In this document: piece after piece, positions 1 through 64,000 of the stretch
Numbering within the stretch: the stretch's first letter is position 1
Layout of the letters: the number at the start of each line of letters is the position of its first letter
Assembly (NCBI RefSeq): GCF_032362555.1
Contig: NC_083513.1
Location: 2,542,001-2,606,000 of the forward strand
Origin: Amyelois transitella
Lineage: Eukaryota > Arthropoda > Insecta > Lepidoptera > Pyralidae
Direction of reading: 5' to 3'
DNA length: 64,000 bases
Program-made: the position numbers and the translations under genes
Notes under the pieces: model-generated
Database searches by the model: none
Seen by the model: only the letters and a program-made list of their open reading frames with translations
What the model was told of the DNA's origin: nothing

Positions 1-9
1 TATTAGCAT

Positions 10-242
10 TTACAATCTAAATAAAATACCACGACGAATACTAAAATTAGGTGGTTCATGATTATGATCTATATTATTTTTTCTTATCACTTCCCGTCCA
101 TGATCTGTAGTGAGTCGACACTTGCATATCTTGTGTCTCGTGCACCTCCATACTGCAGTTTTCTTATACCGTCTGGCGAGACAAAACGTATAACCATTTT
201 CCACTACCACTTCTTTGCCGTATGGATTACGATAGAATTTAA
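10..242 (-). CDS. mod(mdg4): V1, FLYWCH alternative last exon, block A
   Basis: 76 complete codons after acceptor ...TCTTCCAG|TT. The peptide opens KFYRNPYGKEV, reaches W31-R-C33, C39 (C-x5-C) and H59-N-H61, then ends in the block A tail EPPNFSIRRGILFRL. An internal valine codon could be misread as a start, but the frame runs open to the acceptor. This is the leftmost unit and so the most distal from the promoter. More units could lie beyond the left edge. Confidence 0.82.
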
Positions 243-705
243 CTGGAAGAGAAACAAAATTAATTATTATTTGTATATTTCGACCTGGTGATGAACTAAA
301 ATTGGCAACTATATTAAGGAGTTATGAAAGATGCCCAAATATCCTACTTGCGAAATGAATATATTCGTTATTAGTCCGATTTCCATTCATCAAACGCTAT
401 GTTTTGTTTTCAAAAATGAGTCTTCAAATGAGTTTCATGAGTCAATAGAATAAAAAAGGTTCTTAGATCTATAAAACAATATTTTATCATTTTTATCCGT
501 AGTTTTGTAGACATAAAATATAATTATATGTGATCTCATCGTACGGACATTATTTTTATTGAACCAGTAGCTAACTAGTAATGAAAAAAGGAAAATATTA
601 GAGAGATTTAATCCGATAAGCATAACTTATCATCTCTCAAAAGCGATACTTGCACTTAAACTTTCTGGATTGCAGAAAGTGGAATTTTTCATGCAAATGT
701 CTTTA

Positions 706-942
706 TCATTTAATCTTGAATAATGTCCCCATATGAACAATAAATTTAGATGGGGGGTGAGTATGGTTTGTCTTTCTGTGGATTATTTCTCGATGGTCAG
801 AATTAGCGGTGGTAAAGCGCGCTCTACAGATGTCGCTTCGGGTACAAATCCACCTAATCGTAGTAAACGTTTGAATTTTTCGAGAGAAAGTAGTCTTCTA
901 GTACTGCAATCTCCTTTCCTGAAGTGTTTCGTAGGAATCTCA
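706..942 (-). pseudogene. psi1, frameshifted block A FLYWCH exon
   Basis: The acceptor (TTCTTACAG|TG) and the opening RFLRNTSGKEIAVLEDY are sound. The frame then runs into a TAG about 29 codons in. One frame over, the rest of a good finger follows: IRWICTRSDICRARFTT, H-T-H, and a PPSKFIVHMGTLFKIK tail. Compared with its neighbours, about two bases are missing between the aromatic YxF position and the SRK stretch, near 875-885. It could be a dead exon or an assembly slip; all other landmarks are kept. Confidence 0.72.
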
Positions 943-1282
943 CTGTAAGAATGAACATTAACGTACTAACAATATTTATCATTTCTAAGAAAAACAAAAT
1001 AAAACAGAAAACTCAGTTAGTCAGAAATTGACAAACATATATTTAATATATAAAATTCGTGTTACAATGTTCCTTCCCGTACTCCTCCGAAACGGTTTGA
1101 CCGATTCTCATGAAATTTTTCATACCCCTGAGTGATAAGAGTTGTCCACCCTTAACATTTTTATTTAACTAGAAATAACTTAAAAATTATTTATATGGCA
1201 AAACAACGTTTTCCGGGGACAGCTAGTAGTTACTATAAAAACTATGCATTACAAAAATTATTGAACAGGACATAAATGACAT

Positions 1283-1524
1283 CTATTTATGAGTTCTTAT
1301 CAACATTCCTTTGTAAATTGTAAAATTTGGAGGGGGATGAGTGTGACTAGTGTTTTGCTTTATAAATTGTCGTTCACCAGATTTGGTCGTCAAGATACGA
1401 GCCTTACAGACTCTATTATTGGAGCACCTCCAACGTAAAGTGCTTTGTTGATTGTGAGTTAGATTGAAAGTGAAGCCATTGTATATAGCCACCTCTTTTC
1501 CAAATTGGTTTCGAACAAAACTCA
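1283..1524 (-). CDS. mod(mdg4): V2, FLYWCH alternative last exon, block A
   Basis: 79 codons follow acceptor TTTTGCAG|TG. The start SFVRNQFGKEVAIYNGFTF is the classic block A entry. The finger is W-R-C-x5-C-K-A-R with H-T-H, and the tail is PPPNFTIYKGMLIRTHK, slightly longer than its siblings. A mariner copy lies on its promoter-proximal side and a SINE fragment begins about 75 bases upstream of the acceptor. Confidence 0.84.
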
Positions 1525-1599
1525 CTGCAAAACAAAATACTAACAAGATTAAATAAAGAAAAAAAAAATTTGAATCTTTTGTACAATGGAATATTAGTA

Positions 1600-1752
1600 C
1601 ATACACATATCATAACGTATATATCCTTTGCGGGGTAGCCAGAGCCAACAGTCTTGAAAAGACAGATATGCCACGATCAGCTGTTTGGCTTAATAATAGA
1701 ATTGAGATTCAAACAGTGACAGGTTGCAAGCCCATAGCCTAAAAGAAGAAAC
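1600..1752 (-). repeat. SINE family 1 fragment
   Basis: It carries the core shared with 4341-4599 and 60961-61216 (TATATCCYTTGCGGGGTAG, AACAGTCTTGAAAAGAC, TTGGCTTAATRATAGAATTGAG), read on the minus strand. It is truncated before the GTGCCGTGTGGTT head. Confidence 0.75.
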
Positions 1753-1923
1753 TCGTGTTTTAGAAGAAAAATAGATGATATCGCAAATCAGAGGCAACAA
1801 CAAGAAAAAGAACATGACTGTCTGTCTGAACTGACTGTCATTCTTAACCTTTCGTAACACACTCCATGATGTAGAACATACTTTTTGTGAATATCCACCA
1901 TGGTTACAGCTGCTATGCACATA

Positions 1924-3246
1924 CATTCAGTCAGAAAAGTATCGGGAATGGATTATTTATTTATGGTTCCAAATTCAAATTTTTGTTTTTTTTTTGTTGT
2001 TGTTAAATTGGCACAACTGTTTTCCATTTTGGCGCGGAGTTTGAGTTGCATCTGTTGTTTACATTAAATACAGTGCTATTTTTAGTTATATCATATCTAG
2101 TGTGTATTGCTAATTTCATAATGGATAAAAACATCGAACAAAGAGTTTGTCTTAAATTTTGCATTGCCAATGGAATATCGTGTTCGGAGTCACTGAAAAT
2201 GTTACAGAAGGCTTACGGTGAATCGACTTTATCAAAAACTCGTGCTTATGAGTGGTACAAAGCGTTCAAAAGCGGTCGAGATGTGATGGAAGATTTGCCT
2301 CGCTCTGGTAGGCCATCAACGTCTGCAACTGAAGTTAACATCGCAAAAGTGAAGGAAATAGTGACTGAAAATCCTCATTCAACTTTGAGAGAGATAGCCA
2401 CCGAACTTTCTGTATCTCACGAGTCGATCCGTACCATTTTAACTAATAATTTGGGTATGAAACATGTTGCCGCTCGGCTAGTCCCAAAAGACCTGAATTT
2501 TTTTCAAAAACTCAATCGCATGAGAGTCGCTGAGGACATGCTAGAACGAGTCAATTCCGACCCAACATTCATGAAACGCATTGTTACTGGTGACGAGACG
2601 TGGGTTTACGAGTTTGACATGCAAACTAGTCAACAAGCTTCGGAGTGGCGCCTTCCAACTGAACCGAAACCGAAAAAACCACGCCAAAGTCGTTCAAAAG
2701 TCAAAGTCATGTTGACTGTTTTCTTTGACTATCGCGGTGTTGTGCACTCGGAATTCTTGCCGGAAGGTCAAACGGTAAATAAGGAATATTATTTGAGTGT
2801 TATGCGGCGTTTAAGAGAGCAAATCCGACGAAAAAGGCCAGATTTGTGGAAAGAAAATTCTTGGATTTTGCACCATGATAATGCACCTTCGCACAAGGCC
2901 ATCATTGTGAACGAATTTTTAACCAAACACTCAACAAATACCATCGAGCAACCACCATATTCACCAGATATGGCTCCAGCCGACTTTTTTCTTTTTCCTA
3001 AACTCAAATTACCACTTCGTGGCACCCGTTTTCAATCGGTAGAAGACATAAAAGAGAATTCGCGGCGAGAACTGACCTCAATTCCGGAAACAGCGTTTAA
3101 AAAATGTTTTGATGATTGGATTATTCGTTGGCGTAAGTGTATCGTTTCTAAAGGAGCATATTTTGAAGGTGATAAAATAAATTTGGATGAATAACAAACA
3201 GTTTGTGTATTATTGATCTTTTCCTGCTACTTTCTTGACAGAGTAG
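1924..3246 (+). mobile_element. mariner transposon, copy 1, full length
   Basis: A 1323-base element flanked by TA on both sides (1922-1923, 3247-3248). The imperfect terminal inverted repeats begin CATTCAGTCAGAAAAGTAT on the left and, reverse-complemented, CTACTCTGTCAAGAAAGTAG on the right. It holds one uninterrupted transposase gene. It is nearly identical to 32645-33965, differing only at a poly-T length, a few untranslated bases and one silent change that I noticed. It lies antisense to the host exons, 124 bases beyond the stop position of psi2. Confidence 0.93.
2121..3194 (+). CDS. Mariner transposase, copy 1
   Basis: 357 residues from the ATG of MDKNIEQRVC. An upstream in-frame TTG extension is unlikely to be used. 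It catalyses cut-and-paste transposition. Order of parts: an N-terminal helix-turn-helix pair (about residues 1-110, including the YEWYKAFKSGR and GRPS linker region), the WVPKDL-like element ARLVPKDL, then the catalytic domain with VTGDETWVYEFD (first Asp), HHDNAPSH (second Asp) and YSPDMAPADFFLF (third Asp). The spacing of the last two Asp is 34, giving DD34D. Length and motifs match active mariners, and nothing is truncated or shifted. Confidence 0.95.
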   Translation: MDKNIEQRVCLKFCIANGISCSESLKMLQKAYGESTLSKTRAYEWYKAFKSGRDVMEDLPRSGRPSTSATEVNIAKVKEIVTENPHSTLREIATELSVSHESIRTILTNNLGMKHVAARLVPKDLNFFQKLNRMRVAEDMLERVNSDPTFMKRIVTGDETWVYEFDMQTSQQASEWRLPTEPKPKKPRQSRSKVKVMLTVFFDYRGVVHSEFLPEGQTVNKEYYLSVMRRLREQIRRKRPDLWKENSWILHHDNAPSHKAIIVNEFLTKHSTNTIEQPPYSPDMAPADFFLFPKLKLPLRGTRFQSVEDIKENSRRELTSIPETAFKKCFDDWIIRWRKCIVSKGAYFEGDKINLDE

Positions 3247-3369
3247 TATTGTTAATAAATGATTCATAATGTGAAAACTTTTCAATTTTTTATTTAACAA
3301 TTACAATATATAGAAACAGTTTATTATTTACATAATAAAAATATCATTTTTTTTTTATTTTACTGCTTA

Positions 3370-3596
3370 TCAATATTTCAGTATAACACCGTTGAAAATA
3401 GTAAACCTTGGAGGAGAATGACAGTGAATTGTGTGTCTTCTTGTAATTTCTCTTAGACTATTGTTGGTGGTGACGAAGTGAGCTTTGCAATTATTGCAGT
3501 AAGTGCAAGTCTAGCGTAGCGTGGCAATATGTCGGCTGGACAAGTTGAACGTAAACCCGCCCACGTCCTTGCCAGACGTATTTTTAACGAACGTCA
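3370..3596 (-). pseudogene. psi2, nonsense-mutated block A FLYWCH exon
   Basis: The acceptor TTTTTACAG|TG and opening TFVKNTSGKDV are good, but two or three residues before GGFTFNLSSRH are missing. The diagnostic Trp codon is TAG, where the sister V4 has TGG. The following CTYCNNCKAHFVTT, H-C-H and tail PPRFTIFNGVILKY are still readable. The closest relatives are V3 and V4. A mariner copy lies 124 bases past its stop. Confidence 0.8.
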
Positions 3597-4340
3597 CTGT
3601 AAAAAGATGTTATTCAATTTGTCATTTAAAATTTAATGCACTTCAAATAATTTACCTACTACGTACCCCAATGGGCGTGAATGTATGTATGATTGTGAAA
3701 TAAGTGGACTTCATGCCATAAGGTATTATTTACCTTTTGAGCCTTAAGACCAAACTGAAATTTATTGGGTGGTTAAAAATAAAAATAATTTGGGATAATT
3801 ATTTAACATTCTAAAAAAAAATAATAATATACATACGAGTACGTAAAAATAATCTACATGTATCTATGTATAAGTGTTGCGTAATACATATTTCATAATT
3901 AATACACGTACATAACCAAACTTTATGAACGTCATTTATAAATGAAACAGTTATTAAACGAGCACGTAGCGTACCTTTATTTTATCTCAAACGTTCCTAA
4001 TCATGTTACAATGATTCATGGTCTACTTACTAAAACTACGACGAGCTACAAGTACTGCTCTGTCTGCACGACAGAATGTTGATTTGAAACGTCCGAAACA
4101 AAATATAAAGGTAAAATATTATAATGCAACGCGAAAGTTTAAAATTAGTTATTTATGTCGTAAGGAGGAGGAATAATTTGGTTGGACAAAAACTTAATGT
4201 TTTGTTTTCAGCATAAGAAAATTACTAATACACAATAATTTATTTTTATTTTTATTAATTTACAGTCACAATCACAAAACATAAAAATGAAACAGTAAAT
4301 ATAACATATTTTTTCTATAGATTATCTTTAATAATTATTA
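3597..4340. other. Spacer without a gene
   Basis: AT-rich sequence between psi2 and V3. I see no finger motif or long frame here. Confidence 0.6.
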
Positions 4341-4599
4341 CATACACACATATGGTCACGTCTATATCCCTTGTAGGGTAGACAGAGCCAACAGTCTTGA
4401 AAAGACTGATAGGCCACGCTCAGCTATTTGGCTTAATGATAGAATTGAGATGCAATTTTAGACAGTTTGCTAGCCCATCGCCTAAAAAAAGATTCCCAAG
4501 TTTGTAAGCCTATCCCTTAGTCGCCTTTTACAACATCCATAGGAAAGAGATGGAGTGGTCCTATTCTTTTTGTACTGGTGCCGGGAACCACACGGCACC
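4341..4599 (-). repeat. SINE family 1, near-complete copy
   Basis: Read on the minus strand it starts GTGCCGTGTGGTTCCCGGCACC, passes CATCTCTTTCC and TTAAGCCAAATAGCTGA, and ends GGATATAGACGTGACC followed by TATG/TGTA repeats. The same order occurs at 6261-6524, 30842-31112 and 60961-61216. Confidence 0.85.
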
Positions 4600-4886
4600 T
4601 TAATAATTATATTCACATTATTATAATTTTATCTACGTTCATAGCTTATTGACTTGTCTAATCTAACTATAATGTACTAATACTGATCAGATAATTTAAA
4701 TAGCACTTAAATATTTAACAATCTTTGGAAAAAGTAACGTATAATCATTTTTGAATATTTTTTCTCTCCTTTCAGCCAGGTTCGAAATATGTTAAAGTTC
4801 AAACTAAATAACCTTAATTATTTACTTATTACTTAAAGACTCTATTTTCATTGTAAACATTTTTCATAAATATTTTACCGTTAAGT

Positions 4887-5137
4887 TTAAGATCTAAACC
4901 TCAAAATAATGCCATTATGAATCGAAAAATCAGGTGGTGGATGATTATGCGCCGTGGTGTCATTCAGTTGAGGTACAATTTGACGGCGTCCAGTGTTGGT
5001 GGTGATGATTCTGGCCTTGCACATTTTGTTCCTGGTGCATCTCCAGCGAAGCGTCTTCTGGTGCCGGCTGCTGAGGTTGTAAGTAAAACCTTTGAGGATT
5101 GCCACTTCCCTTCCCCACGAGTTCTGAACGAATGTCA
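4887..5137 (-). CDS. mod(mdg4): V3, FLYWCH alternative last exon, block A
   Basis: 82 codons follow TTGCAG|TG. It opens TFVQNSWGREVAILKGFTY. The finger is RWRC-x5-CKAR, with a longer loop (TNTGRRQIVPQLND) before H-N-H and the tail PPPDFSIHNGIILRFRS. An upstream ATG in the same frame lies in the intron and is ignored. It is closest to V4 and psi2, suggesting local tandem duplication. Confidence 0.84.
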
Positions 5138-5504
5138 CTGCAATAAATTTAAATGTCAATAAAGAAAACAGGAAAATTTAAATAATATAGAACCTGGTTA
5201 TTTGTAGACGGAATTAAATATTTTTTGCTGGGTGTTATCTATGTGTATTGTTTAAAATTTCAAAATATCATGGGACTAATAAAAACCCTCAACTGTGTAT
5301 AGTACTGTCCACAGATTAAGTAGACAATATATTTATAAAAAAATAAAAAGAATAGACGAGGCGCCCTTACATCACTAATGGTGAAATATAAAGTAACACT
5401 GATTAGTCTTTCTCCAATCAAAACGGGCATCGATTCTTATACACATTCGAAATCTTAAGGATGTTTGTCAAAGCATTTCTAACGGCAACTTACAACATTA
5501 ATAT

Positions 5505-5746
5505 TTACGATTTAAACCGTAATATAACACCATTATGGACGGTAAATTGAGGTCGTTCATGTGTGTGGCCTTTGATCTGTCGAATAATTTGCCGTTTTCT
5601 AGCATTCTCTGTGACGAACCTGGCCCTGCAGATGTTGTTACGGGTGCAAGTCCAATGCAGCGTGGTGAAGTGTCGGCTGGCCAAGTTGAAAGTAAACCCG
5701 TCCATAATTGCCACATCTTTGCCGGCTGCGTTTTTGACGAAGCTCA
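5505..5746 (-). CDS. mod(mdg4): V4, FLYWCH alternative last exon, block A
   Basis: 79 codons follow acceptor ATGTGCGCAG|TG. SFVKNAAGKDVAIMDGFTF leads into HWTC-x5-CRARFVT, H-T-H and the tail ERPQFTVHNGVILRFKS, where the usual second Pro is replaced. It shares NLxSRH with V3 and psi2. The small plus-strand frames here are shadows of this exon. Confidence 0.84.
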
Positions 5747-6260
5747 CTGCGCACATGGTTTATAATTAAAAACCAGGCGTCAAAATAAAATATCGTATTC
5801 TCAAAGATATATGCAAATATGATGAAGCACTACTTAGGAAGAAATCAAAAATTTAAAACATAATCTTTTTTTGGAATAAAAAAAAAAATACTGCAATTGT
5901 CAGGAGAAAAAATTGATGAATATATAAAAAAGAGTTGGCTTTAGAAATAGTCAGCGAACAACTTCAATCTCTTGATAATAAAAAGAGGAAAAGAAATAAA
6001 TTAAAACATACCAATTGCAGACGTTATTTTTATTTAGCAATAAGAAATTGTGCCAAACATACATATGTTTGAGGAGAGGAATGATAGCCCAAGATATCTC
6101 CGAAGAACCCAAAACAATTGATTTTGGATTTAGTCTCCTAGCGAAAGTTGCAGCTTTTTTTGTTTTAATATTTTTGATGGAATTTTTACCGTTGTTGCAT
6201 GTCTGTCACTTAAAAGCACACGTTTCGACCGTTAAACGAACTTTTTTAATGGTCTTATTT

Positions 6261-6524
6261 GTTCCGTGTGGTTCCCGGCACCAATGAAAAAAGAATAGGA
6301 CCACTCCATCTCTTTCCCATGGATGTCGTAAAAGGCGATTAAGAGATAGGCTTACAAACTTGGGATTCTTTTTTTTAGGCGATAGGCTAGCAACCTGTCA
6401 CTATTTGAATCTCAATTCTATCATTAAGCCGAAAAGCTGAACGTGGCCATTCAGTCTTTTCAGACTGTTGGCTCTGACTACCCCGCAAGGGATATAGACG
6501 TGACCATATGTATGTATGTTTGTT
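6261..6524 (+). repeat. SINE family 1, near-complete copy
   Basis: Plus-orientation copy from TTCCGTGTGGTTCCCGGCACC to the TATGTATGTATG tail. It has the same internal order as the copies at 4341-4599 and 30842-31112. Confidence 0.85.
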
Positions 6525-6628
6525 TATACAAATTACTGTATCGTTTTGTTGGTCACTCTCAAGACATTTCTTAAATTGACTTTCCGGCTAGTTCAATCTG
6601 TATTATTTGTTCTATAAACTGATTTATT

Positions 6629-6873
6629 CTATATTCTAAGTAATACACCATTCCGTATAAGAAAATGTGGAGGCGGATGACTGTGTTGCTTAGCTTTGGT
6701 TGTTTTCAATAATCTCAGATCTTTGGTGGTCGTGAACCTTGCTTTGCAACTTAAGGACAGTCCCCTGCTAATACACTGCCAGGAATTGGTACTTTTCCTG
6801 CGGCCGTCACAACTGAAAATGAACCCATTGAGTATTGCCATATCCTTCCCGGCAGCCGATTTGACGAAAAATG
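6629..6873 (-). CDS. mod(mdg4): V5, FLYWCH alternative last exon, block A
   Basis: 80 codons follow TTTTTTTCTAG|CA. The opening FFVKSAAGKDMAILNGFIF means the first ATG is an internal Met. The finger has the widest Cys spacing of block A (WQC-x8-CKARFTT), H-S-H and the tail PPPHFLIRNGVLLRI. A SINE ends about 100 bases past its stop. Confidence 0.82.
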
Positions 6874-7035
6874 CTAGAAAAAAATAAGACTTATTTTAAA
6901 GTATATTTTATTATGTTAAATTTTTCCCAGACATAGGATCCAGCTAGATTGATTTTGGCTCCCATGTGCACCTGTATTTAAAATTTCAACGAAATCGTTT
7001 GAACTGTTTTCACAAAAGCCAGAATAACATTACTT

Positions 7036-7057
7036 GTTGTAGTAGTAGTAGTAGTAG
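7036..7057. repeat. GTA/TAG microsatellite
   Basis: Six or seven tandem GTA units in the spacer between V5 and V6. Confidence 0.8.
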
Positions 7058-7202
7058 GGTGTATCCGTATACATGTATGCGGAGGATGCAGGTAATTTGT
7101 ACATTTTATTCATCATCTGACAAATCAAGCAAGTAATCAACGTAAATTGTAATAAATAAAAAAAAATATATATATAATAATTTAGAAATTTAATCTAGCA
7201 TT

Positions 7203-7432
7203 TTACACTTTTATGAACATCCCGTCATGAATGACAAATTTAGGTGGTGGATGAGTGTGGTTCAAAGTAGATCTGATAACTTGATGGTTTTTATTGGTTG
7301 TAAGGCACGACTTGCATACGCCGTGGTTGGTGCAGAGCCAACCTGTTGTGTTCTTGCAAACTCTGCTACGGTAGAAAGTATAGCCTTTATAGATAACTAT
7401 CTCCTTTCCGCAGCGTTTGCGAACGAATTGCA
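7203..7432 (-). CDS. mod(mdg4): V6, FLYWCH alternative last exon, block A
   Basis: 75 codons follow GCTTTTCAG|TG. QFVRKRCGKEIVIYKGYTF, GWLC-x5-C, H-T-H and the tail PPPKFVIHDGMFIKV. After the second Cys it reads KSCLTT where the block has KARFTT, adding a third nearby Cys. Confidence 0.83.
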
Positions 7433-8310
7433 CTGAAAAGCAAAACTTTAAAATTAATTTTACTACCTATGACATAAAAAAATTATCTTCTTTGCAAAAC
7501 TATTTTGATACTGTATAGTATACAACGAACTTAGCTCACTCATTTAAAAAAAAGTTAAAGGATAATACCGTATCCTTGAATGTTTGATTCAATTTAAATT
7601 GGACTTTTTTAAATATTTAGTACTTCAGTAAATAGTTTTGTGGCTGGCCGTCAGAGGATAAAAAAAACAGAACTTTAAAAATAAAAAAAGTATTTTATTT
7701 AGTTTTAAATTTATGTAAAAGGTTTTTGTGCGTCTAATGTTATGTATTGATGTGACAGAGATCGTAAATATTTTATAAATAAATTTATATAACTTCTGAA
7801 ATACTAGACAGAGGTCGGGTGGTTAACTCCGAATATGATTTTATATTTTCTAAACTTTTAAACTCTCTTAATCTTTCAATTAGAAACAAATTTCAACAAC
7901 CTCAATATCACAGTTTGATAACGTTATTTTAAACTTTTTCTACCTAACGTAAAATATTAATTTATGTATGTACCAAATTACACTTATTACAACTAGTCAA
8001 CAATATAGATATTACAATCAACATATGATTGACAAAGTTTTTGGCAAAATTTTACTCTTCCTGACTTCTTACTTGTTGCACATAAATAAGTGCTTTGTCA
8101 AGTCGCATACTGTGTGTTTTATTTTTACAACCCTCAATTGGCTCATGAGGTGCATTGTCTTTAATATATAGTATTTTATAACTCAAAAAAATTATGTTCT
8201 ATCGTCTAAGCTTCAAATCACAATTTCGCTTAGATTAATGGAAACACTGTTTTCTCCACCAATTCCGCTTGGATAAAAATGCAGCCTAATGAGCACGTGC
8301 ACGTATTCTT
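7433..8310. other. Spacer without a gene
   Basis: AT-rich sequence between V6 and V7. The small plus-strand frame near 7968-8171 has no recognisable domain. Confidence 0.55.
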
Positions 8311-8543
8311 CTATACTATTGTTATTATTCCATCGCGTAGAACAAATAAAGGCGGAAGATGTCTATGACGATTTTTGACTTTCAAAACAGTTTTTTTCTT
8401 ATCACAGATAAATTGTGCGTTACAATGCCCAGGTCCCCTGGTGCAAACCCATCTGTTTGTGGTCGTATTCCTCATATTACAGTAGTAAGTGTATCCGTTC
8501 AAGATGGCTACAAATTTTCCAGAGGGATTCTTAACTATTGTCA
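8311..8543 (-). CDS. mod(mdg4): V7, FLYWCH alternative last exon, block A
   Basis: 76 codons follow TATTTACAG|TG. TIVKNPSGKFVAILNGYTYYC leads into RWVC-x6-CNAQF, H-R-H and the tail LPPLFVLRDGIITIV. It pairs with V9 in the YYCNMR stretch and the six-residue Cys spacing, so these two are likely sisters. Confidence 0.82.
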
Positions 8544-9658
8544 CTGTAAATAACAATAAGTGAAAAATATCGTTTTTCAAGAACGAAGATATAAAAGGTC
8601 TGCATAATTGAAGTACAAATATTTAAAGAATATCATTTGTAGGAAAGGTTGTTCAGTTTACTTGATAAAACATACTCTTAGAATATTTGTACCCACATAA
8701 TTAGGACAGATCATATATAAAATAAGAAAAACAGTGATAACAAGCAAGCATGAGATGGCGGCAGTGGATGTATTAGGATGATAGCGAAAGAAGACAAAAA
8801 AACAGATTGCAAATGAAAATGAGTCAGGCAAACGTTCTTCATAGCTGTTTTGTGCGAAGCTTTCAAAGTCGGATATGGTGCAAGGTGACTGGAGCATGAA
8901 AACAAGGACAGATGTACTTACTATCACAGGCTGATAAACTTTAAGCGCTGGATACACTGAAAAGGCGCAATAAGGGCGAGGTCACGAGTACCTAGCGGAC
9001 GTGACGGTTCGTGATAAAACTGCGCACGAGTTCCAACCGTCACGCCACAAACCGAATGCACCCTTCCCGTTGCCTCTCTTTTCTCGACCGCTGGGGCCCG
9101 AGCCCTGTCTTCCGCCGTGAGGTCCGTTTAATAGGGTTCACGAACGTTGACAAGACGTATGTATCTTCTTGCTCTTTCTATCACTTATACATAAAGTGGA
9201 TAAGATATTATCTTATCCAGCGTCGTTATATCGTTATTGTCGTATTGACAAGTAAAAACATAATTTATGTTATACCCCACTCTACAATTTATTGCATTAA
9301 AAAGAAAACACATATATATATTTAAAAGACGAAAGAAATAATGTTAAAAATGTTGGCCACAAAAAATCTTTGATAACAACAAATAAAATAATTATTACGT
9401 ATATACATAAAATTGTGTGAATATTTACAATAACTAATTAACGTACCTATACGTTTACATCACCATCTGTCTTCCAAATTTTAGAGAAATTTGTTTAGAA
9501 GTTAGGGATGCGCATTGATACTTTATATTTATACAATATGTTTTCGACTACTTAATAAAAAAATAACCTTTCTTATATGTCTAAATTATTATGTCTAAAA
9601 CTTCATTTAATCTAAAATGTACAGCGTAACTTTAAAACAAATAAATAAATCCATACTA
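8544..9658. other. Spacer with a GC-richer patch of unknown origin
   Basis: No finger is seen. Roughly 8960-9150 is clearly less AT-rich than its surroundings, as if inserted, but I recognise no protein or repeat family there. The rest is AT-rich. Confidence 0.5.
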
Positions 9659-10018
9659 TACATACATAAAATCACGCCTTTTTCCCGGAGGGGTAGGCAG
9701 ACACTACATCTTACCATAATACAATCTGTATATTTTGCGGTGCTGATTGACATACAACCGCCCAAACCGGAAGGTCTAGATTTTTGAAATTCATTCTTTA
9801 TATGGACTAGGCGTGTACTAAGAGAGGTTTCCCATAATTTCAGTGGGATCGGAAATTACTAGGATTGTTACAAGCGGATTCTTAACATATTCAATATTCT
9901 TAATAGATTCAATGAATGTAGATAAAGTGAAGGAAATATGCAGAGATCGTGGCAAGTGGAAAGAGGTAGTCTCTGCCTACCCCTCCGGGAAAGAGGCATG
10001 ATTTTATGTATGTATGTA
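9659..10018. repeat. Inverted pair of SINE family 2 ends
   Basis: The left end (from 9659) reads CATACATAAAATCACGCC then CCCGGAGGGGTAGGCAGA. The right end (to 10018) is its inverted counterpart CTACCCCTCCGGGAAAGAGG...GATTTTATGTATGTATG. The right half extends to about 9910 with the family 2 body (GATCGTGGCAAGTGGAAAGA) seen also at 48523-48659. Confidence 0.7.
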
Positions 10019-10044
10019 CGGGCAGGGCCTCTAACTTGCTAATA

Positions 10045-10274
10045 TTATATTTTAACAAAGATCCCATTGCGTATAATAAATCTGGGAGGACGATGGTTAT
10101 GTACAAAGTTCGATCTTATTATGATCTGGTCTTTGGTCGTGGTGAACCTCGCTTTGCATATTCCGTTGTTGGTGCACTGCCAAGCGTTCGTTGTCTTCTT
10201 ACGACCGTCACAGTAGAAGCTGTAGCCGTCCACGAGAGCGATCTCCCTCCCAGACGTGTTGCGAACAATGGTCA
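10045..10274 (-). CDS. mod(mdg4): V8, FLYWCH alternative last exon, block A
   Basis: 75 codons follow AAATTTCAG|TG. TIVRNTSGREIALVDGYSFYC, AWQC-x5-CKARFTT, H-N-H and the tail RPPRFIIRNGIFVKI. A family 2 SINE tail stops about 27 bases past its stop codon, so its 3' end must run into that repeat. Confidence 0.84.
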
Positions 10275-10391
10275 CTGAAATTTTATATAAATCAATTATT
10301 GAAATTGAAATTTTTTATAAAGAAATGGTATACACGAAAATACATAAAACCCCGCATTTTTGTATTAGAACGTCGATGTCTACTTGTAGAA

Positions 10392-10484
10392 ATACATACA
10401 TATAGTCATGTCTTTGTCCCTTGCGGGGTAGACAAAGCCAACGGTTTTAAGAATATTGAAAGGCCACGTTCAGCTGCATCTGTA
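10392..10484 (-). repeat. SINE family 1 fragment
   Basis: It keeps the ATATAGTCATGTC...CTTGCGGGGTAGAC and GGCCACGTTCAGCT segments, read on the minus strand, and is broken before the middle of the element. Confidence 0.65.
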
Positions 10485-10859
10485 CCCGTAGAAATATCAA
10501 TAGTTATATTAAGGAGATAAGGCCATGTCGGTTTTATTCATTTATTTATCAATATCGATACTAATATAACTTATTGTAATAAAGACAAAAAATTGCACAT
10601 TTTTTTTTATAGAAATTTCTTAAAATATTTAAGATACAAATATTTATTACTCAAGATCAAAACTTATAACGCCTACAAGAAATAGAAGCTACCACAAAGA
10701 TGTAATATTTGCCTACCCCTACAATATACATATTTGATTCAGGTAATATTCTAAGAAAATTAACAACTCTGAAAGTGAATTGGTCCGATCTTAGTTTTCA
10801 GTTGTAACGAACATTTAGATGTTACATAATGATTTATTGAAAAAATAAGAACTTTCAAC

Positions 10860-11095
10860 TTAGATTCTTATAAGTACTCCACCGCGTATAATATACCTAG
10901 GAGGTTCATGAGAATGAAGATTCTTCATCTTTAAAACTCTCTGGCCACTCTTATCGGCGGTGAATCTTGCGTTACACATACCCGTCCCTCTCGTGCATAC
11001 CCAACCGTTGGTACTCTTACTCCTCATGTTGCAATAGTAGGTAAACCCATCGATGATAGCTATCTCTTTCCCGGCCACATTCCTGACTATTTCCA
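10860..11095 (-). CDS. mod(mdg4): V9, FLYWCH alternative last exon, block A
   Basis: 77 codons follow TATTGCAG|TG. EIVRNVAGKEIAIIDGFTYYC, GWVC-x6-CNARFT, H-S-H and the tail EPPRYIIRGGVLIRI. This is the right boundary of block A. The next unit to the right (V10) lacks the PPxFxI tail. Confidence 0.84.
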
Positions 11096-13415: not shown

Positions 13416-13419
13416 CTCA

Positions 13420-15032: not shown

Positions 15033-15202
15033 CTGAAAATAAAAATTTAATGATGCAAAATGTTATTTGTTTATTCCGTAATAAATAAAAATAATTAAAT
15101 AAAGCATACTTTGAAAAAGACCGAGATATTGTGACTTTGGGAGGCATATATAAAGAAAAAGACGCCTCCTCTAAAAACTATTAGCGAAAATGATTTTCAT
15201 GT

Positions 15203-44310: not shown

Positions 44311-44330
44311 TTGCAGCTTGTTTTAAAACG

Positions 44331-52899: not shown

Positions 52900-53147
52900 T
52901 TAATTCACAGGAAAATATGTGAACGGTGGCAGATGATCCAGGCCGAAACCATTCGGGTGATTGTGTTCGTTATTCACTTTGACAAACTCTTCATTGACGG
53001 TATACACGAAGGCCTTGCAGCTTCTCTTGCAGTGAGTTGCGCAGTTCCAACGTATTTTTCTCCCACCCGTTGTATACTGCTTCAAAAACCTATATCCGTT
53101 GACATAAACCGCCCGAGCGCCCCGGCTAGTTGTTACGAATTTCGGTT
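52900..53147 (-). CDS. mod(mdg4): V47, FLYWCH alternative last exon, block D
   Basis: 81 codons follow CAAATTGATCTTGTTTTACAG|AA. PKFVTTSRGARAVYVNGYRF, IRWNC-A-T-H-C-x-x-x-C (C-x7-C with His and a Cys inside), H-N-H, then a hydrophobic tail PNGFGLDHLPPFTYFPVN. First unit with C-x-x-H. Confidence 0.84.
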
Positions 53148-53903: not shown

Positions 53904-54178
53904 TCATATATACTCGTACTGATGGCTACTTCCCAAATTATTAGCATTTGTATGGCTTAATTGATTGTATTGATTAAATGGTGGATGATTGTGCTCATTC
54001 TGACATCGCAGGATATCCTTGCCCGCTGTGAAAACCACGGCTCGGCACCCCTGGTTGTAGTGGGTACCGCATCGCCAACGAGTTTTTATTCCCAGTTGAC
54101 AATGTCTAGATAATTTGTATCCAGATAAGTACAAATTAGGTACTCGATTGTTTCTTGATAGACGACCACGAGATGCGA
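53904..54178 (-). CDS. mod(mdg4): V48, FLYWCH alternative last exon, block D, longest
   Basis: 90 codons follow CTTTATAATGCGTTTTCAG|TC. ASRGRLSRNNRVPNLYLSGYKL, RWRCGTHYNQGC, H-N-H, then a 25-residue polar tail rich in Asn, Gln and Tyr (NQYNQLSHTNANN...). The low-complexity tail is unlike any sibling. Confidence 0.82.
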
Positions 54179-54658: not shown

Positions 54659-54855
54659 TTAATGGTTATGGTCTTTTCGGCAAATAAGGATCTCCAAATC
54701 CTGGTTTGTGATCAGGCTGGCTCGACATCCTTGCTTCTGGCGCGTGGCACAAAACCACCTTACTCTGTTCCCACTCAGTAAGCATTGGCGACTAAATCTA
54801 TACCCATGGATTTGAATCACACTACCTCCTCGTGAGCTCTTGGTAAGGAATATGT
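54659..54855 (-). CDS. mod(mdg4): V49, FLYWCH alternative last exon, block D
   Basis: 64 codons follow ATCTTTCAATAATTTTAG|AC. IFLTKSSRGGSVIQIHGYRFSRQ, VRWFCATRQKQGC, H-N-H at the stop. Arg replaces the block D His. The TTNQDLEIL strand is one residue longer than usual. Confidence 0.83.
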
Positions 54856-55173: not shown

Positions 55174-55424
55174 TTAACATAACAAGGGACTTAAATAAGG
55201 GATTTCTTGATCATAATTTTTTACGATGACTGGCGGATGAGTGTGATGATTATTGGCTTTCACGATGCTGTTGGCGACCGTGGTGATAGCAGCTTTGCAG
55301 CCTCTGTTGTGATGAGTCGAACAGTACCATCTTATTTTCATACCGAAGATCTTTTGTCGACTGAACCTATACTGTGCCAAAATGATAATTGGAGTCCCAC
55401 GGGCAGACCTCGTGAATGTTATAT
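55174..55424 (-). CDS. mod(mdg4): V50, FLYWCH alternative last exon, block D
   Basis: 82 codons follow GATAGTTATTTTTTCAG|AT. ITFTRSARGTPIIILAQYRFSRQ, IRWYCSTHHNRGC, H-T-H, then a 20-residue tail PPVIVKNYDQEIPYLSPLLC. The frame upstream of the acceptor is intron. Confidence 0.84.
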
Positions 55425-55821: not shown

Positions 55822-56015
55822 TCAGAAATGTGAATGATCATTGTTGATTTTTACGACTACTTTATCTATAGTGGTGACCGAGGCCTTGCAGCCTTTGCTA
55901 TGATGACTGGAACAGTACCATCTGCTTTTACCGCTCACAGTACGTTGGCAGCTGAACCGGAAATTAGACACGATGAGAAGAGGTCGTCCTCGATTAGATG
56001 TTGTAAATATAACCT
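55822..56015 (-). CDS. mod(mdg4): V51, FLYWCH alternative last exon, block D
   Basis: 63 codons follow AGCAACAAACTTGTTGCAG|AG. VIFTTSNRGRPLLIVSNFRFSCQ, SRWYCSSHHSKGC, KASVTTIDKVVV, H-S-H-F. It has no early start codon and was found by acceptor and phase. The plus-strand frame on top is a shadow. Confidence 0.84.
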
Positions 56016-56327: not shown

Positions 56328-56554
56328 TTATCTATAATTTCCAGTAACATGATTCTGTTCATGATTGTGTTCATTGTTGTATTTGTAGACGACGTTATCA
56401 CAATTGGTCAAGGCGAATGCCCTACATCTCTTGTGGTGGTGAGAAGCGCAGAACCACCTGGTCGTTCCCCCGATGTTTCTGTGTTGTCGACTGAATCTAT
56501 AACCCCCTAATAACAAGATGGGTCCACCACGACTTGACGTGGTAAATTCTAATC
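56328..56554 (-). CDS. mod(mdg4): V52, FLYWCH alternative last exon, block D
   Basis: 74 codons follow GACTGAACCATTAAATTTTACAG|GA. LEFTTSSRGGPILLLGGYRFSRQ, TRWFCASHHHKRC, ALTNCDNVVY, H-N-H, then EQNHVTGNYR. Three successive His follow the first Cys. Confidence 0.84.
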
Positions 56555-56776: not shown

Positions 56777-56988
56777 TTACAAATTTTTTGAAGGAACATG
56801 ATTGTGATCATTTTTGCATTTGTAGATGATATAATCTATGGTAGTGTAAGCACTCGCCCGGCATCCCTTGTGATGATGAGAAGCGCAACGCCACCTTATT
56901 TTCGAATTGTCCGTCATGTGCCGGCTAAACCTGTAGTCCCCTATTGACATTATGGATCCACCCCATTTAGATTTGCTAAATGAAACTC
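56777..56988 (-). CDS. mod(mdg4): V53, FLYWCH alternative last exon, block D
   Basis: 69 codons follow AATATATTTCCTATTATTTGCAG|GA. VSFSKSKWGGSIMSIGDYRFSRH, IRWRCASHHHKGC, AYTTIDYIIY, H-N-H, then VPSKNL. It is the sister of V52, 220 bases away. Confidence 0.84.
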
Positions 56989-57559: not shown

Positions 57560-57753
57560 TCAATGGTTATGAGTTTTTGTAAACTTTAGGATTCTATTCC
57601 TTTCATTGTCCGTGAAAATCGCAGCCTTACATCCAAACTGATGTAGGGCGCAGTACCACCTCGTCTTCCAACGATTTACACGATGTCTGAAGAATTTTTG
57701 ACCACCAACTATAAGAAGACGGGTACCGCGATTTGATAACACAAACTGAAGAT
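57560..57753 (-). CDS. mod(mdg4): V54, FLYWCH alternative last exon, block D
   Basis: 63 codons follow ATCCGTTTATTTCTTTATAG|AT. LQFVLSNRGTRLLIVGGQKFFRH, TRWYCALHQFGC, AIFTDNERNRILK and H-N-H at the stop. The Cys spacing is six and the strand loop is longer and basic. Confidence 0.83.
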
Positions 57754-58583: not shown

Positions 58584-58774
58584 TCAATGGGTATGATCAT
58601 TCTTATATCTGACAATTTCTCTATCGATCGTGTAGGCAACTGCACTGCAGCCTCGATGATGGTGTGTCGCGCAATACCACCTCGTCTTCAATCCAGCTGC
58701 CATCTGACGATAGAATTTGTAACCGTTCATGTAGAGAACTAGCGCACCACGGACTGATTTTGCGAAGAATATTT
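58584..58774 (-). CDS. mod(mdg4): V55, FLYWCH alternative last exon, block D
   Basis: 62 codons follow AATCTTTGTATGTACATTTCAG|AA. IFFAKSVRGALVLYMNGYKFYRQ, TRWYCATHHHRGC, AYTIDREIV and H-T-H at the stop. The upstream Met is in the intron. Confidence 0.84.
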
Positions 58775-58873: not shown

Positions 58874-58988
58874 GATCTGTCACTATTTGAATCTCAATTC
58901 TATGATTAAGCCTAAAAGCTGAACGTGGCCTATCTGTCTGTCTGTATCTACCCAGGAAGAGATATAGACGTGTTTATATGTATGTATG
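58874..58988 (+). repeat. SINE family 1 3' part
   Basis: CTGTCACTATTTGAATCTCAATTC, GCTGAACGTGGCC, GAGATATAGACGTG, TATGTATG tail. Confidence 0.75.
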
Positions 58989-59445: not shown

Positions 59446-59684
59446 TTATTTATGATAAAATCTTATGCTCGTTGTTTTTTCGTTGATGTGAGTAGGAGGA
59501 TGATTATGTTCAGGGTTATGTTTGGTGATGCCGTCTTCGAGGGTGAGGATAGAAGCCCTACAGGCTGACCAATGTTTGATGCATCGCCACCTTATCTTTT
59601 TACTGTTCGTCCATTTCTGAATGGTATACTTGTATCCACCTAAGATTATTTTACCTTGTTGCAACCAGTCAGTGCTGGTGAAAT
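59446..59684 (-). CDS. mod(mdg4): V56, FLYWCH alternative last exon, block D
   Basis: 78 codons follow ACGTAAAAACATTTTAATTTCAG|AT. FTSTDWLQQGKIILGGYKY, IRWRCIKHWSAC, ASILTLEDGIT, H-N-H, then a basic tail PPTHINEKTTSIRFYHK. The lead DWLQQGK departs from TSxRG. Confidence 0.82.
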
Positions 59685-60205: not shown

Positions 60206-60414
60206 TTATACAGGTGGATGATTGTGTTCGTTTTTTGTTTTGAAAAAATCGTCATAAACCGTGGTAAGAGTGGCCCGACATTTGAAGGAGCAGTGCTGGG
60301 AACAACGCCAAAGTCGTTTCACGCTCGTACTTTGCTGTTTTTTCATATGGTAAGTGTATCCTTTGTAAGCTAAGAGTCTTATACCTCGCCGGGACTCTAT
60401 AAAATAGAAAGAAT
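60206..60414 (-). CDS. mod(mdg4): V57, FLYWCH alternative last exon, block D
   Basis: 68 codons follow GACCGTACGTTATTTATTTGCAG|AT. SFYFIESRRGIRLLAYKGYTY, LWRCSQHCSFKC, ATLTTVYDDFF, H-N-H, PPV. Like V47 it has a Cys right after the extra His. Confidence 0.83.
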
Positions 60415-60960
60415 CTGCAAATAAATAACGTACGGTCAACTATTTATTTATCTATTAAAATATGATGCAATAGCAAAAAGAAGGACCAATGTTATATTCT
60501 GTACTATTAAAGTAAATTTCGCAAACAGTCTCTCTAAGCCGACGTCTGAAGCGGCTTGTGTTACTAAAAATTGTAAAAATAGCTGCAGAATAAGTGATAA
60601 GATAATAAAAACAGGATTAAAAAAATCACTTTAGTAGATTATGTTTTATTTTTTAAGTTGTTTCAATTCATGCTCATAGTTACAATACTTCGACATTAAT
60701 ATAATAACAGTAAAAATCGCACAAATTGAGCCAACTAAAGTTACAGACTTGTGTAATTTATAAATAGCGTACTAAATAAATCATGTGCGCATTTGGGTTT
60801 TGGCTTTAAAACTGGCCATTATCATGTTTGAATATTAACTTTTTTGTTAAACTGTTTTGTGCGCGTGCAAATTTCTTGAGTAAGTTACTACTAAATTTAA
60901 AAACAAATAAATAATCAACCATACATGAACAAATTATTTGGGAAAGTATACAATTCATTC

Positions 60961-61216
60961 ATTCATATAGTCACGTCTATATCCCTTGCGGGGTTGACTG
61001 AGCCAACAAACAGCCTTGAAAAGACTGATAGGCCACGTTCAGCTGTTTGGCTTAATGATAGAATTGAGATTCAAATAGTGACAGGTTGCTAGCCCATCGC
61101 CTAAAATAAGAATCCCAAGCTTAAAAGCCTATCCCTTAGTCGCATCTTACGACACCCATGGGAAATGAGATGGAGAGGTCCTATTCTTTTTTATTGGTGC
61201 CGGGAATCACACGGCA
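60961..61216 (-). repeat. SINE family 1, near-complete copy
   Basis: Reverse orientation, from the ATAGTCACGTCTATATCCC end to CCGGGAATCACACGGCA. It ends 36 bases from the V58 stop. Confidence 0.85.
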
Positions 61217-61251: not shown

Positions 61252-61496
61252 TTATTTATTTTTTGGGGGATGATTATGATCCGTATCGAGAAGAGCAATA
61301 CAATCTCCAATAAGATGAATCCTGGCAGTACAGCCTTTCCTTCCTTGATGGGTGGAACACCGCCATCTGCTTTTCAATCCTGTGTTAACTTCACCTTTCC
61401 TCAAATCTTCATAATAAGTGTACCCTTTCAAATATAACAATCTGTTTCCCTTATTTGACGTTACGAATTCTATTTCTTCTGTTTCTCCAGTTTCTT
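61252..61496 (-). CDS. mod(mdg4): V58, FLYWCH alternative last exon, block D
   Basis: About 80 codons after TATCTTTTTCCAAAATTAAAG|AA. A second in-phase AG three bases on is possible. The lead EETGETEEIEFVTSNKGNRLLY is strongly acidic and unlike its siblings. Then SRWRCSTHQGRKGC (x8), H-N-H and PPKNK. The loop YEDLRKGEVNTGLK is longer than usual. Confidence 0.8.
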
Positions 61497-62649
61497 CTTT
61501 AATTTTGGAAAAAGATAAAGGTTAGTTTATTTGGCCTTATATTCTAAATGTCTTGTTATTTAGTTCAGCGTTTCGTCATATGTTTAATGACATAAGTACT
61601 AATTTGGAAAACCGAAACCATCACAGAAAGTAAATTTTAATTCAGAGGAACTGTGACAGAAATAAAAATACAAATTATGTTAAGTTATGTGAAAATAAAC
61701 GTCAATCAATACATATTTTTCAAACGACTAAATTGTTGCGTGGCTTGCTTATAAAGCATATTGTAATTAAAAAATATCTTCGTAACGATCTCTTGAAAAC
61801 AGTAAAAAAATGAACAAATTACTTTGCGATTATTAAATTATAGATAAAGGTTATATGTTATGGCTAAAGCCTAAAGTGGAGCTACGCCCATTTGCTGGAG
61901 TTATTATCTTATAAAAATATTTAAATTAATTAAATAAACTTTTCAATTGATTTTTTTAATACTTTGAAATACAGAATTATATTCTTTAAAATTCTTTTTT
62001 TTTATGAGGAAATGAAAAATAATATAAACTAATAATTTTAGCCGATAACCTAGTTTTAGCCGATTACGTTAAGCTGCACCTGCCACTGCTGTACTTCTGC
62101 ACCCGGCTCTGGTCATTGTGACGTCAGATAAATAAACCTAGGTCGAGTCGGGGGTAAGATAGCTACAGCTAGGTGTAGCCGCCCTTCGGGCTCTAGCTGT
62201 AGCATATACACGTTTTTAATATGTATGTTGTGAATATTCCTATAACAACCTAAGCATATAGTCTTGTTTCATTTGGAACAAACTGTTCTAATTTTTTTCA
62301 CTCTATTAGAAGCAATGGAAGGGCCAAACAAAACTCTCAGTTTAGCATAACAACCAACACAACATCTCCTTTCTTTCGCACGTCTGAGAATATGCAGAGA
62401 ATCTAAGTAGAAAATTTCTAGAATACCTAAAACAAATAATCTATTTATATGAAAATGCGTATAAAGAGAGTACATTATTATTTGAAAGAAAATCAATTCA
62501 GTAACAAAAGACTAGCCCCAAACAAACTGTAAGGAATAAACTAAGAAGTAACGTAAGAAAAAAAGAAAAGAAAATTAATTAAGTTTATTTTATTTGTGCA
62601 CACATTTAACAACTTAGCAATACAAAGAAATGTATAAACGTAACCAGTT
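61497..62649. other. Spacer with a small stem-loop
   Basis: No finger is seen. 62162-62203 has 11-bp perfect arms (GCTACAGCTAG, CTAGCTGTAGC) around a GC-rich loop in a short GC-richer patch. The rest is AT-rich. Confidence 0.5.
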
Positions 62650-62851
62650 ACGTTTTAAGAGGAGGACGGATTTGCTTGTTTTTAACAAAACAATTTCGTC
62701 TTCAACAGTATAAATGTAGGTGACATTCTTTATAGTGATATAGTGATTGGTCGAGCAGAACCAACGAATCTTAAAACCGGCAGATGAAGTTTGTGTAACC
62801 TTTATACTGGAATGCGCCTGCCACGTTGAGATGTCACAAATGTAAATTTAT
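62650..62851 (-). pseudogene. psi8, frameshifted block D FLYWCH exon
   Basis: It enters in phase at ACAATTCTATTGTAG|AT-like sequence and reads KFTFVTSQRGRRIPV before a TAA. Shifted frames give YKGYTNF, then GFKIRWFCSTNHY. The second Cys (expected GCxA) and the final H-N-H are gone (LLKTSKS). It is clearly the decayed sister of V59, 160 bases to its right. Confidence 0.72.
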
Positions 62852-63010
62852 CTACAATAGAACCATTATTGTTTCATAGATGTAATTCAGTACTGTCCCA
62901 CTACTTTGAAATATTCTTAAACACTTTTGGACATATTCTATTGGCAAATTCCTCTACCAGAAAAGAGGAATTATTTCAATGCAGGTATTTAATTATTCAA
63001 TTAAATCATA

Positions 63011-63216
63011 TCAAACTGGTGGGGGATGGTTGTGTTCAAATTTAACATGAACGATATCACCGTCAATGGTGTAAATGGAGGCGCGACAATTTTTGGAGTG
63101 ATGTGTGGAGCACACCCAACGTGTTTTGAACCCTATCGAGCGTTTTGCGAAATAGCTGTAGTTCCTGTAGTGAATCAACGGCTTCCCCCTTTTTGATGTT
63201 GCAAACTTGAAACTGT
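63011..63216 (-). CDS. mod(mdg4): V59, FLYWCH alternative last exon, block D
   Basis: 67 codons follow GTAATTAAAATTAAACTTTCAG|AC. SFKFATSKRGKPLIHYRNYSYF, TRWVCSTHHSKNC, ASIYTIDGDIV, H-N-H, PPPV. It is the sister of V60 and of the broken psi8. Confidence 0.85.
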
Positions 63217-63533
63217 CTGAAAGTTTAATTTTAATTACAATAAAATTAAATGTTCTTGTGATAAGTATAGAAAAGATGATATTGGACATGGTATTAACTT
63301 AATAATCATCAATAAAGGTACCCTTTTTTTTAAACAGGCATTTAGTATGGTCTATGGCAAGTCGTCTCAAGTCGTGAAGGAGTTAAGGATTTTCTTCAAT
63401 TTCAAAGCATCGAATCGTGAAAGACATACATATCTTTAATTAAAAGAAAACCATAGGTATAAGTGTTACGATGTACTAACACAACGACATCACATACATT
63501 AAGAATTACAAAAATTACTAATTATTTTTACTA

Positions 63534-63730
63534 TTACGGATAATGATTATGTTCAGTTCTTATTTTAACGATTTCATTTTCGATGGTGCGAATGTAAGCC
63601 AAGCAACCTTTGTTATGATGTGTAGAACACAGCCATCTTGTTTTCGAACTGTTCACTCGTCTTGGAAAATAGCTGTAATTGTTGTGAAGTATCATTAAGT
63701 TCCCCTTTCGCGACGTCACAAATTTAAAAC
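63534..63730 (-). CDS. mod(mdg4): V60, FLYWCH alternative last exon, block D
   Basis: 64 codons follow AGTGAAATTTTGGATTTCAG|GT. FKFVTSRKGNLMILHNNYSYF, TRWLCSTHHNKGC, AYIRTIENEIV, H-N-H-Y-P. This is the unit nearest the right edge and so closest to the expected shared exons. Confidence 0.85.
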
Positions 63731-64000
63731 CTGAAATCCAAAATTTCACTTATTAATTTACCGCTCTCTTTATAAACAAAAAATCCATTTATTGGATGCA
63801 TTATGCACACAAACACGATAGTATTAGAACAAAACAGTTTAAGGATTAGTTTTGAAAGTGAGATCTATTACAGTACCTATAGGTATCTATTATATTATAG
63901 TTTCTATTATGGTAAAATAAACATACATGTAAAAGTATATGTATGTTAATTTTATTTTGAGTATATTTTTATAGCTAAACTTATGTATGTAAACTATTAT
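63731..64000. other. Right-edge spacer
   Basis: AT-rich sequence with no exon visible before the edge. Confidence 0.5.

Follow-up and report, generated by a model that had tools for sequence, protein, structure and literature searches.

How many alternative endings can a single gene carry? This question is raised by 64,000 nucleotides of the genome of the pyralid Amyelois transitella (NC_083513.1, positions 2,542,001 to 2,606,000; we call this 64-kb stretch the window, and coordinates below count from its first base). Its minus strand holds 60 intact exons that each encode a FLYWCH finger, together with eight decayed or candidate copies. We propose, with good confidence, that the window covers the 3' portion of a single mod(mdg4)-like locus with at least 60 alternative FLYWCH last exons, and that the common donor exon lies outside it. 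The plan would be a known one and the size exceptional: what we see is very probably the acceptor portion of an unusually large locus, truncated by both edges of the window.

The exons were detected with a profile built from 52 fingers of the window itself. It gave 63 matches of at least 15 bits on the minus strand; the plus strand had none (top score 7.3), nor did 20 dinucleotide-shuffled windows (top score 13.9). Because the profile derives from the window's own fingers, the Pfam test weighs more: all 60 intact exons match PF04500 (FLYWCH) at E ≤ 0.01, and each of the eight that were checked against Pfam's own cut-off (seven sampled exons and exon 1) passes it. The sole other Pfam family at E ≤ 0.01 is Zn_ribbon_recom, in one of the 60 exons, so these are not C2H2 endings of the lola type. 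An exon was counted as intact if it had an acceptor, a finger and a stop. The acceptors that bound the exons listed here were chosen in the common phase described below; the phase test was run separately. A tblastn search of all 60 exons against the window (E ≤ 1) gave 32 clusters beyond the intact exons. Eight of these were kept, seven with a best match of E < 1e-3 on the minus strand and a weak one, at 44211-44357 (E = 0.12), because 11 matches fell there. The remaining 24, which lay on both strands with a best E of 0.014, were discarded. Intact exons have a median spacing of 723 bases and a median length from acceptor to stop of 210.5 bases. They reach within 10 bases of the left edge and within 270 of the right, which leaves the set open at either end. 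Profile, Pfam and tblastn together thus return the 60 intact and eight broken or candidate exons of a preliminary description made from the letters alone, which had also placed them all on one strand, given each intact exon its own stop (we find one in 60 of 60) and noted that the set is open at both edges. From right to left, the features are as follows (intact ranges run from acceptor to stop; the tailed class is described further on).

1-63730, minus: entire acceptor array as visible, 60 intact and 8 decayed or candidate exons (profile, acceptor/stop and tblastn results)
63534-63730, minus: FLYWCH last exon 1, rightmost (acceptor, finger and stop)
63011-63216, minus: FLYWCH last exon 2, best-scoring AG in other phase
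62677-62849, minus: decayed FLYWCH copy, pieces in two frames, no Pfam match (tblastn)
61252-61496, minus: FLYWCH last exon 3
60206-60414, minus: FLYWCH last exon 4
59446-59684, minus: FLYWCH last exon 5, best-scoring AG in other phase
58584-58774, minus: FLYWCH last exon 6
57560-57753, minus: FLYWCH last exon 7
56777-56988, minus: FLYWCH last exon 8
56328-56554, minus: FLYWCH last exon 9
55822-56015, minus: FLYWCH last exon 10, modelled
55174-55424, minus: FLYWCH last exon 11
54659-54855, minus: FLYWCH last exon 12
53904-54178, minus: FLYWCH last exon 13
52900-53147, minus: FLYWCH last exon 14
50720-50931, minus: FLYWCH last exon 15
49743-49963, minus: FLYWCH last exon 16
48195-48433, minus: FLYWCH last exon 17
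46337-46575, minus: FLYWCH last exon 18, tailed
45871-46112, minus: FLYWCH last exon 19, tailed
45272-45513, minus: FLYWCH last exon 20, tailed
44743-44987, minus: FLYWCH last exon 21, tailed
44211-44357, minus: candidate decayed FLYWCH copy, weak (tblastn)
43699-43892, minus: FLYWCH last exon 22, short C-C loop
42809-42996, minus: FLYWCH last exon 23, best-scoring AG in other phase
41981-42201, minus: FLYWCH last exon 24, HNPTAH end, weak acceptor
39901-40097, minus: FLYWCH last exon 25
39478-39671, minus: FLYWCH last exon 26, best-scoring AG in other phase
38968-39164, minus: FLYWCH last exon 27
38170-38375, minus: FLYWCH last exon 28
37354-37547, minus: FLYWCH last exon 29
36036-36229, minus: FLYWCH last exon 30
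35301-35506, minus: FLYWCH last exon 31
34100-34299, minus: FLYWCH last exon 32
31525-31721, minus: FLYWCH last exon 33
29472-29665, minus: FLYWCH last exon 34
29038-29231, minus: FLYWCH last exon 35
27968-28161, minus: FLYWCH last exon 36
26934-27136, minus: FLYWCH last exon 37
26421-26474, minus: decayed FLYWCH fragment (tblastn)
26101-26297, minus: FLYWCH last exon 38
25136-25324, minus: decayed FLYWCH copy, finger partly missing, best sense-strand match 25184-25318 (tblastn)
24344-24582, minus: FLYWCH last exon 39
23434-23657, minus: FLYWCH last exon 40
22435-22625, minus: FLYWCH last exon 41
21591-21778, minus: FLYWCH last exon 42
20491-20690, minus: FLYWCH last exon 43
20121-20240, minus: decayed FLYWCH copy (tblastn)
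19364-19548, minus: FLYWCH last exon 44
18314-18513, minus: FLYWCH last exon 45, weak acceptor, stronger same-phase AG at 18486
17565-17767, minus: FLYWCH last exon 46
16522-16733, minus: FLYWCH last exon 47
15542-15798, minus: FLYWCH last exon 48, tailed, F replaces W before first Cys, second same-phase AG at 15771
14797-15032, minus: FLYWCH last exon 49, tailed
14093-14292, minus: FLYWCH last exon 50
13165-13410, minus: decayed FLYWCH copy (tblastn)
12423-12634, minus: FLYWCH last exon 51
10860-11095, minus: FLYWCH last exon 52, tailed
10045-10274, minus: FLYWCH last exon 53, tailed
8311-8543, minus: FLYWCH last exon 54, tailed
7203-7432, minus: FLYWCH last exon 55, tailed
6629-6873, minus: FLYWCH last exon 56, tailed
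5505-5746, minus: FLYWCH last exon 57, tailed
4887-5137, minus: FLYWCH last exon 58, tailed
3373-3597, minus: decayed FLYWCH copy, in-frame stop, few residues missing (tblastn)
1283-1524, minus: FLYWCH last exon 59, tailed
709-934, minus: decayed FLYWCH copy, two frames (profile, tblastn)
10-242, minus: FLYWCH last exon 60, tailed, leftmost in the window

Do the fingers have the fold that their sequence announces? The strict C..C..HxH spacing is kept in 58 of the 60 intact exons; the exceptions are exon 22, with a shorter C-C loop, and exon 24, which ends in HNPTAH rather than HxH. All four zinc ligands are invariant in the alignment of the fingers, with the last histidine of exon 24 at an unusual spacing. 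An AlphaFold2 model of exon 10 has a mean predicted local distance difference test score (pLDDT) of 95.7. Its top match in PDB is 2rpr, the fifth FLYWCH domain of human FLYWCH1 (template modelling score 0.82, with a modest Foldseek E of 4.9e-3), and the sequence profile matches the same domain at E = 2.3e-10. The window finger and human FLYWCH1 share this fold, whereas their arrangement differs: FLYWCH1 has several FLYWCH domains per protein, and here there is one per exon, ended by a stop. The most variable alignment columns lie partly within columns 22 to 27, with columns 1 and 37 about equally variable. Columns 22 to 27 come after the strand that, by analogy with WRKY domains, would face DNA; the few WRKY-type chains that come next in Foldseek (E near 1, amid unrelated folds) back this analogy weakly.

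Are the exons the last ones of longer transcripts? In 56 of the 60 intact exons (and 57 of the 63 profile matches), the best-scoring AG acceptor stands in one common frame relation. The four exceptions (exons 2, 5, 23 and 26) keep a lower-scoring AG in the common phase. Within 60 bases upstream, the AGs are divided 100/47/33 among the three phases, and the pyrimidine-rich YAGs 49/10/6; TT[ACGT]CAG stands at 39 of the 60 chosen acceptors. A common phase means that the upstream exon must give one base of a split codon, and given this phase a single donor could serve every exon. Since 18 of the 60 exons start with AA, AG or GA, such a donor could not end in T.

At the other end of the exons, donors are scarce. 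(Splice-site weights were typed from general knowledge, without training on the host species.) The tail between the last histidine and the stop has a donor-like site in one of 60 exons, against about 1.6 expected, and the stop comes within three codons of the last histidine in 27 of 60. Outside exons and the two mariner elements described below, donor-like sites scoring above 3 number 44 on the minus strand and 47 on the plus strand; at four higher cut-offs the minus count equals or falls below the plus count, with much the same balance. This comparison depends little on the exact weights, because both strands were scored alike. By these signals the intact exons look terminal: an AG acceptor immediately precedes each, a single finger and a stop follow, and donors are not in excess after the finger. 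Separately, among AGs outside exons, 275 of 2219 on the minus strand and 216 of 2484 on the plus strand score above 0 as acceptors; the minus-strand surplus could come from decayed exons or from strand composition.

The single acceptor phase is also what the repeat exons of one giant protein would require, so we considered a single very long protein whose internal exons would carry some 60 FLYWCH repeats, in the manner of a giant FLYWCH1. But there is a stop in every intact exon. For the intact exons, the stops and the donor-poor tails exclude a long protein of internal FLYWCH exons, barring readthrough or removal of the stops, and we find this explanation hardly conceivable.

Could the exons instead belong to about 60 small FLYWCH genes in tandem that work independently, every one having a promoter, a start codon and perhaps a private 5' exon? 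In Drosophila, acceptor exons of mod(mdg4) with their own promoters are described, though these are trans-spliced to the common exons (PMC12692577), and in the window 23 of the 60 frames have an in-frame ATG upstream of the finger. However, the other 37 lack any in-frame ATG from the upstream stop to the finger, and just eight have one between the acceptor and the finger. Private 5' exons would need about 60 extra minus-strand donors, which the counts of 44 and 47 do not provide, and intronless genes would have no use for a common acceptor phase. We therefore consider independent genes quite improbable. Acceptors in a row without matching donors, and 37 exons without an ATG, imply that the exons must take their beginning from elsewhere. 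As judged with typed rather than trained donor weights, the variable exons appear to lack coding 5' exons of their own. The preliminary description had taken them to be interchangeable last exons of a single BTB protein. Its first half agrees with the terminal look, the phase shared by 56 of 60, the missing donors and the 37 exons without a start codon; joining to a BTB exon is still a prediction.

How old is the array, and is it maintained? The median pairwise protein identity of the exons is 29%, and the end branches of their tree are about one change per site long (median 1.02). The proportion of nonsynonymous differences (pN) is below that of synonymous differences (pS) in 1762 of 1770 exon pairs. 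Among the 14 pairs with the lowest pN, eight have a saturated synonymous rate (dS), and the other six have finite values, near saturation, with dN/dS of 0.12-0.26. Without selection, one would not expect sixty frames to have stayed open through so much divergence. By these measures the exons are old and under purifying selection.

The age of the exons bears on another explanation, namely that the row is a graveyard of FLYWCH-bearing transposons, such as those of the Mutator-like element (MULE) type, or of pseudogenes. FLYWCH-like domains occur in MULE transposases. Furthermore, the word FLYWCH appears nine times in a paper on a nematode element of the Mutator type (PMC3169594), and the window does contain two mariners and several short repeats. 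The mariners (1922-3249 and 32643-33968, plus strand) share 99.6% identity across about 1.33 kb, including 1163 consecutive bases without a difference. Each has an open 395-codon frame in the orientation opposite to the exons, and the transposase read from 2127-3194 is related to Mos1; the pair looks like the product of recent movement. The exons are different. By our reading of its rows, which are mariners and dispersed repeats, no intact-exon pair appears in a blastn self-comparison of the window at E ≤ 1e-5, so the exon copies are not recent. And 60 intact frames at near-saturated synonymous divergence, with pN below pS almost throughout, are not what debris would leave. Nor did we see a MULE frame beside a finger, the longest frame clear of intact exons having 112 amino acids (mariners apart; the frames were not searched against Pfam). 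We regard a graveyard as scarcely plausible.

The row grew by local duplication. The nearest relative of an exon is its neighbour for 26 of 60 exons, against 2.0 in permutations, and similarity drops with distance (Mantel r = 0.28, reached in none of 5000 permutations); both point to copying between neighbours. Fifteen exons form a tailed clade with support 91/85, in a midpoint-rooted tree built from few columns in which most forks are unresolved. They lie in three blocks among exons of the other class: on the left up to 11 kb, as a pair at 14.8-15.8 kb and as four at 44.7-46.6 kb. The tailed exons (10-11095, 14797-15798 and 44743-46575, minus strand) continue, by our count, for 15 to 18 residues past the last histidine, mostly with PP-x-F/Y ... 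G ... K/R near the end.

What known system does this resemble? Drosophila mod(mdg4) combines four common exons with 31 variant ones, of which 27 encode FLYWCH (PMC9723646; 26 according to PMC4667647). As here, there are many alternative last exons, most with one FLYWCH finger, and in Drosophila they share a single common N-terminal body. Unlike here, where at least 60 intact exons in 64 kb all encode FLYWCH and lie on one strand, the Drosophila exons lie on both strands and are trans-spliced (PMC12692577). The preliminary description had put Drosophila at about 30 isoforms on the same plan, which fits the 31 variant exons, and had called the present set twice as large. It is indeed about twice 31, and about 1.5 times the 41 of Plutella (PMC4667647). 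That 41 comes from Kong and others, who report 31, 9, 40, 41, 35 and 34 acceptor combinations across six species of Diptera and Lepidoptera, as well as canonical cis-spliced homologues in a beetle, two hymenopterans and Daphnia (PMC4667647). Their figures for Danaus (40), Plutella (41), Anopheles (35) and Aedes (34) are isoforms counted from transcripts, whereas ours is at least 60 exons counted in the genome. With these four insects the array shares expanded FLYWCH acceptor exons, and in that report FLYWCH domains of one branch are often tandem exons of one acceptor locus. In contrast, Danaus has 24 acceptor genes spread over 550 kb on both strands (PMC4667647), and here there is about one exon per kb on one strand. 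In the open-licence literature on mod(mdg4) and FLYWCH, we found no set larger than the 41 of Plutella. The lola gene of Drosophila is similar in having one BTB body and 20 isoforms with alternative C-termini, but 17 of the 20 have C2H2 fingers rather than FLYWCH (PMC11426971). The array is probably a new member of the mod(mdg4) kind, with a predicted join to BTB.

Because the upstream exon would lie beyond the window, we also considered that the same architecture might serve a body other than mod(mdg4), either another BTB protein or a protein without BTB. FLYWCH does occur in other insect proteins, such as Su(Kpn) (PMC5094011). However, among BTB proteins of the arthropods covered in PMC11426971, FLYWCH is described only with the TTK-type BTB (Arachnida apart), and honey bee and flour beetle are each listed with one BTB-FLYWCH gene (PMC4033408). 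A different body is thus very improbable.

How might a mod(mdg4)-like locus of this size work? We propose that a common upstream part, most likely a BTB oligomerisation body as in mod(mdg4), would be spliced to one of the 60 exons, and that the chosen FLYWCH finger would help to decide the chromatin site or the partner of the protein. In Drosophila, variants N and T of mod(mdg4) have different genomic sites and motifs, and N represses the telomeric element HeT-A (PMC9723646). Single variants have distinct roles there, in homologue conjunction in male meiosis, in the gypsy insulator and in repression of a telomeric retrotransposon (PMC5666082, PMC9723646). The FLYWCH domain adds to the recruitment of Mod(mdg4)-67.2, but the mutant phenotype was also restored by a transgene that lacks the domain (PMC5666082), so the finger may have help. 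If the exons are spliced in cis, the donor exon would lie to the right of the window. We slightly favour cis-splicing of one long pre-mRNA over trans-splicing to separately transcribed acceptor RNAs, because all of the exons are on one strand. This layout neither shows nor excludes trans-splicing, since Anopheles gambiae has its donor and acceptors on the same strand (PMC4667647).

Several points weigh against a single mod(mdg4)-like locus. Neither a BTB exon nor any other common exon was seen in the window, across the whole of which no BTB profile was run; the longest frames are those of the two mariners and those over fingers. The best AG is in another phase for four of 60 exons, several chosen acceptors score poorly, and the splice-site weights are not host-trained. 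Duplicates would inherit phase and acceptor place, so a common phase implies that one donor could serve all exons, not that one does. Other FLYWCH proteins are described (PMC5094011), so FLYWCH alone does not prove mod(mdg4). Poly(A) signals within 250 bases after the stops are not enriched (40 of 63, against 1337 of 2132 in a random minus-strand control), although this test has low power because the sequence is 66% A+T; AATAAA within 200 bases shows only a weak sense bias (32 sense and 21 antisense of 59). Finally, shared selector or docking motifs, which other large exon choices possess, were sought as 6- to 8-mers in six stretches, four of them before the acceptors and two after the stops; no clear intron motif common to the exons emerged upstream of the acceptors. 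The top upstream word, TTCTTTA (7 of 60, control mean 1.1, z = 4.7), is accounted for by the acceptor tract. Downstream, TACTAC occurs in 9 of 53 (control mean 1.6, maximum 5, z = 5.1), and we do not rely on it because so many words were tested.

A bolder form of our proposal, to which we give somewhat less than an even chance, is that no other chromatin protein is known to have so large a choice of alternative last exons, above 60 and possibly near 100 with the flanks. This ancient array, with exons so far diverged that one-to-one partners of many are to be expected in related species, would be a repertoire of chromatin addresses, possibly under transposon pressure, as when Drosophila mod(mdg4)-N represses HeT-A. 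(The searches for relatives covered viral and prokaryote collections for one exon and a prokaryote collection for the mariner, not insect genomes; they found none and are uninformative on distribution.) Sixty or more exons would show that the coding plan is able to expand far beyond the 31 to 41 of the literature cited here, and a single chromatin protein could probably take on any one of sixty or more tails. With about one exon per kb on one strand, the row offers a clean setting in which to ask how the splicing machinery selects a last exon out of sixty. It raises the questions of whether splicing is in cis or in trans and of what drives the number of exons up.

The window also contains smaller features. 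ARAGORN predicts a tRNA-His (gtg) at 43562-43633 (minus strand), between two exons; it is doubtful, as a search of the window against Rfam gave no match, tRNA included, at the cut-off. One dispersed repeat, which is about 260 bases long and probably a short mobile element, has four longer copies that are 87 to 92% alike and occur in both orientations (4339-4598, 6261-6523, 30842-31105 and 60948-61216), a partial copy (1598-1750) and shorter pieces (10392-10475, 29308-29400, 40165-40349 and 58877-58988). A second dispersed family, with copies of about 45 to 150 bases, lies at 9649-9716, 9912-10018, 23334-23384, 37201-37335 and 48509-48659.

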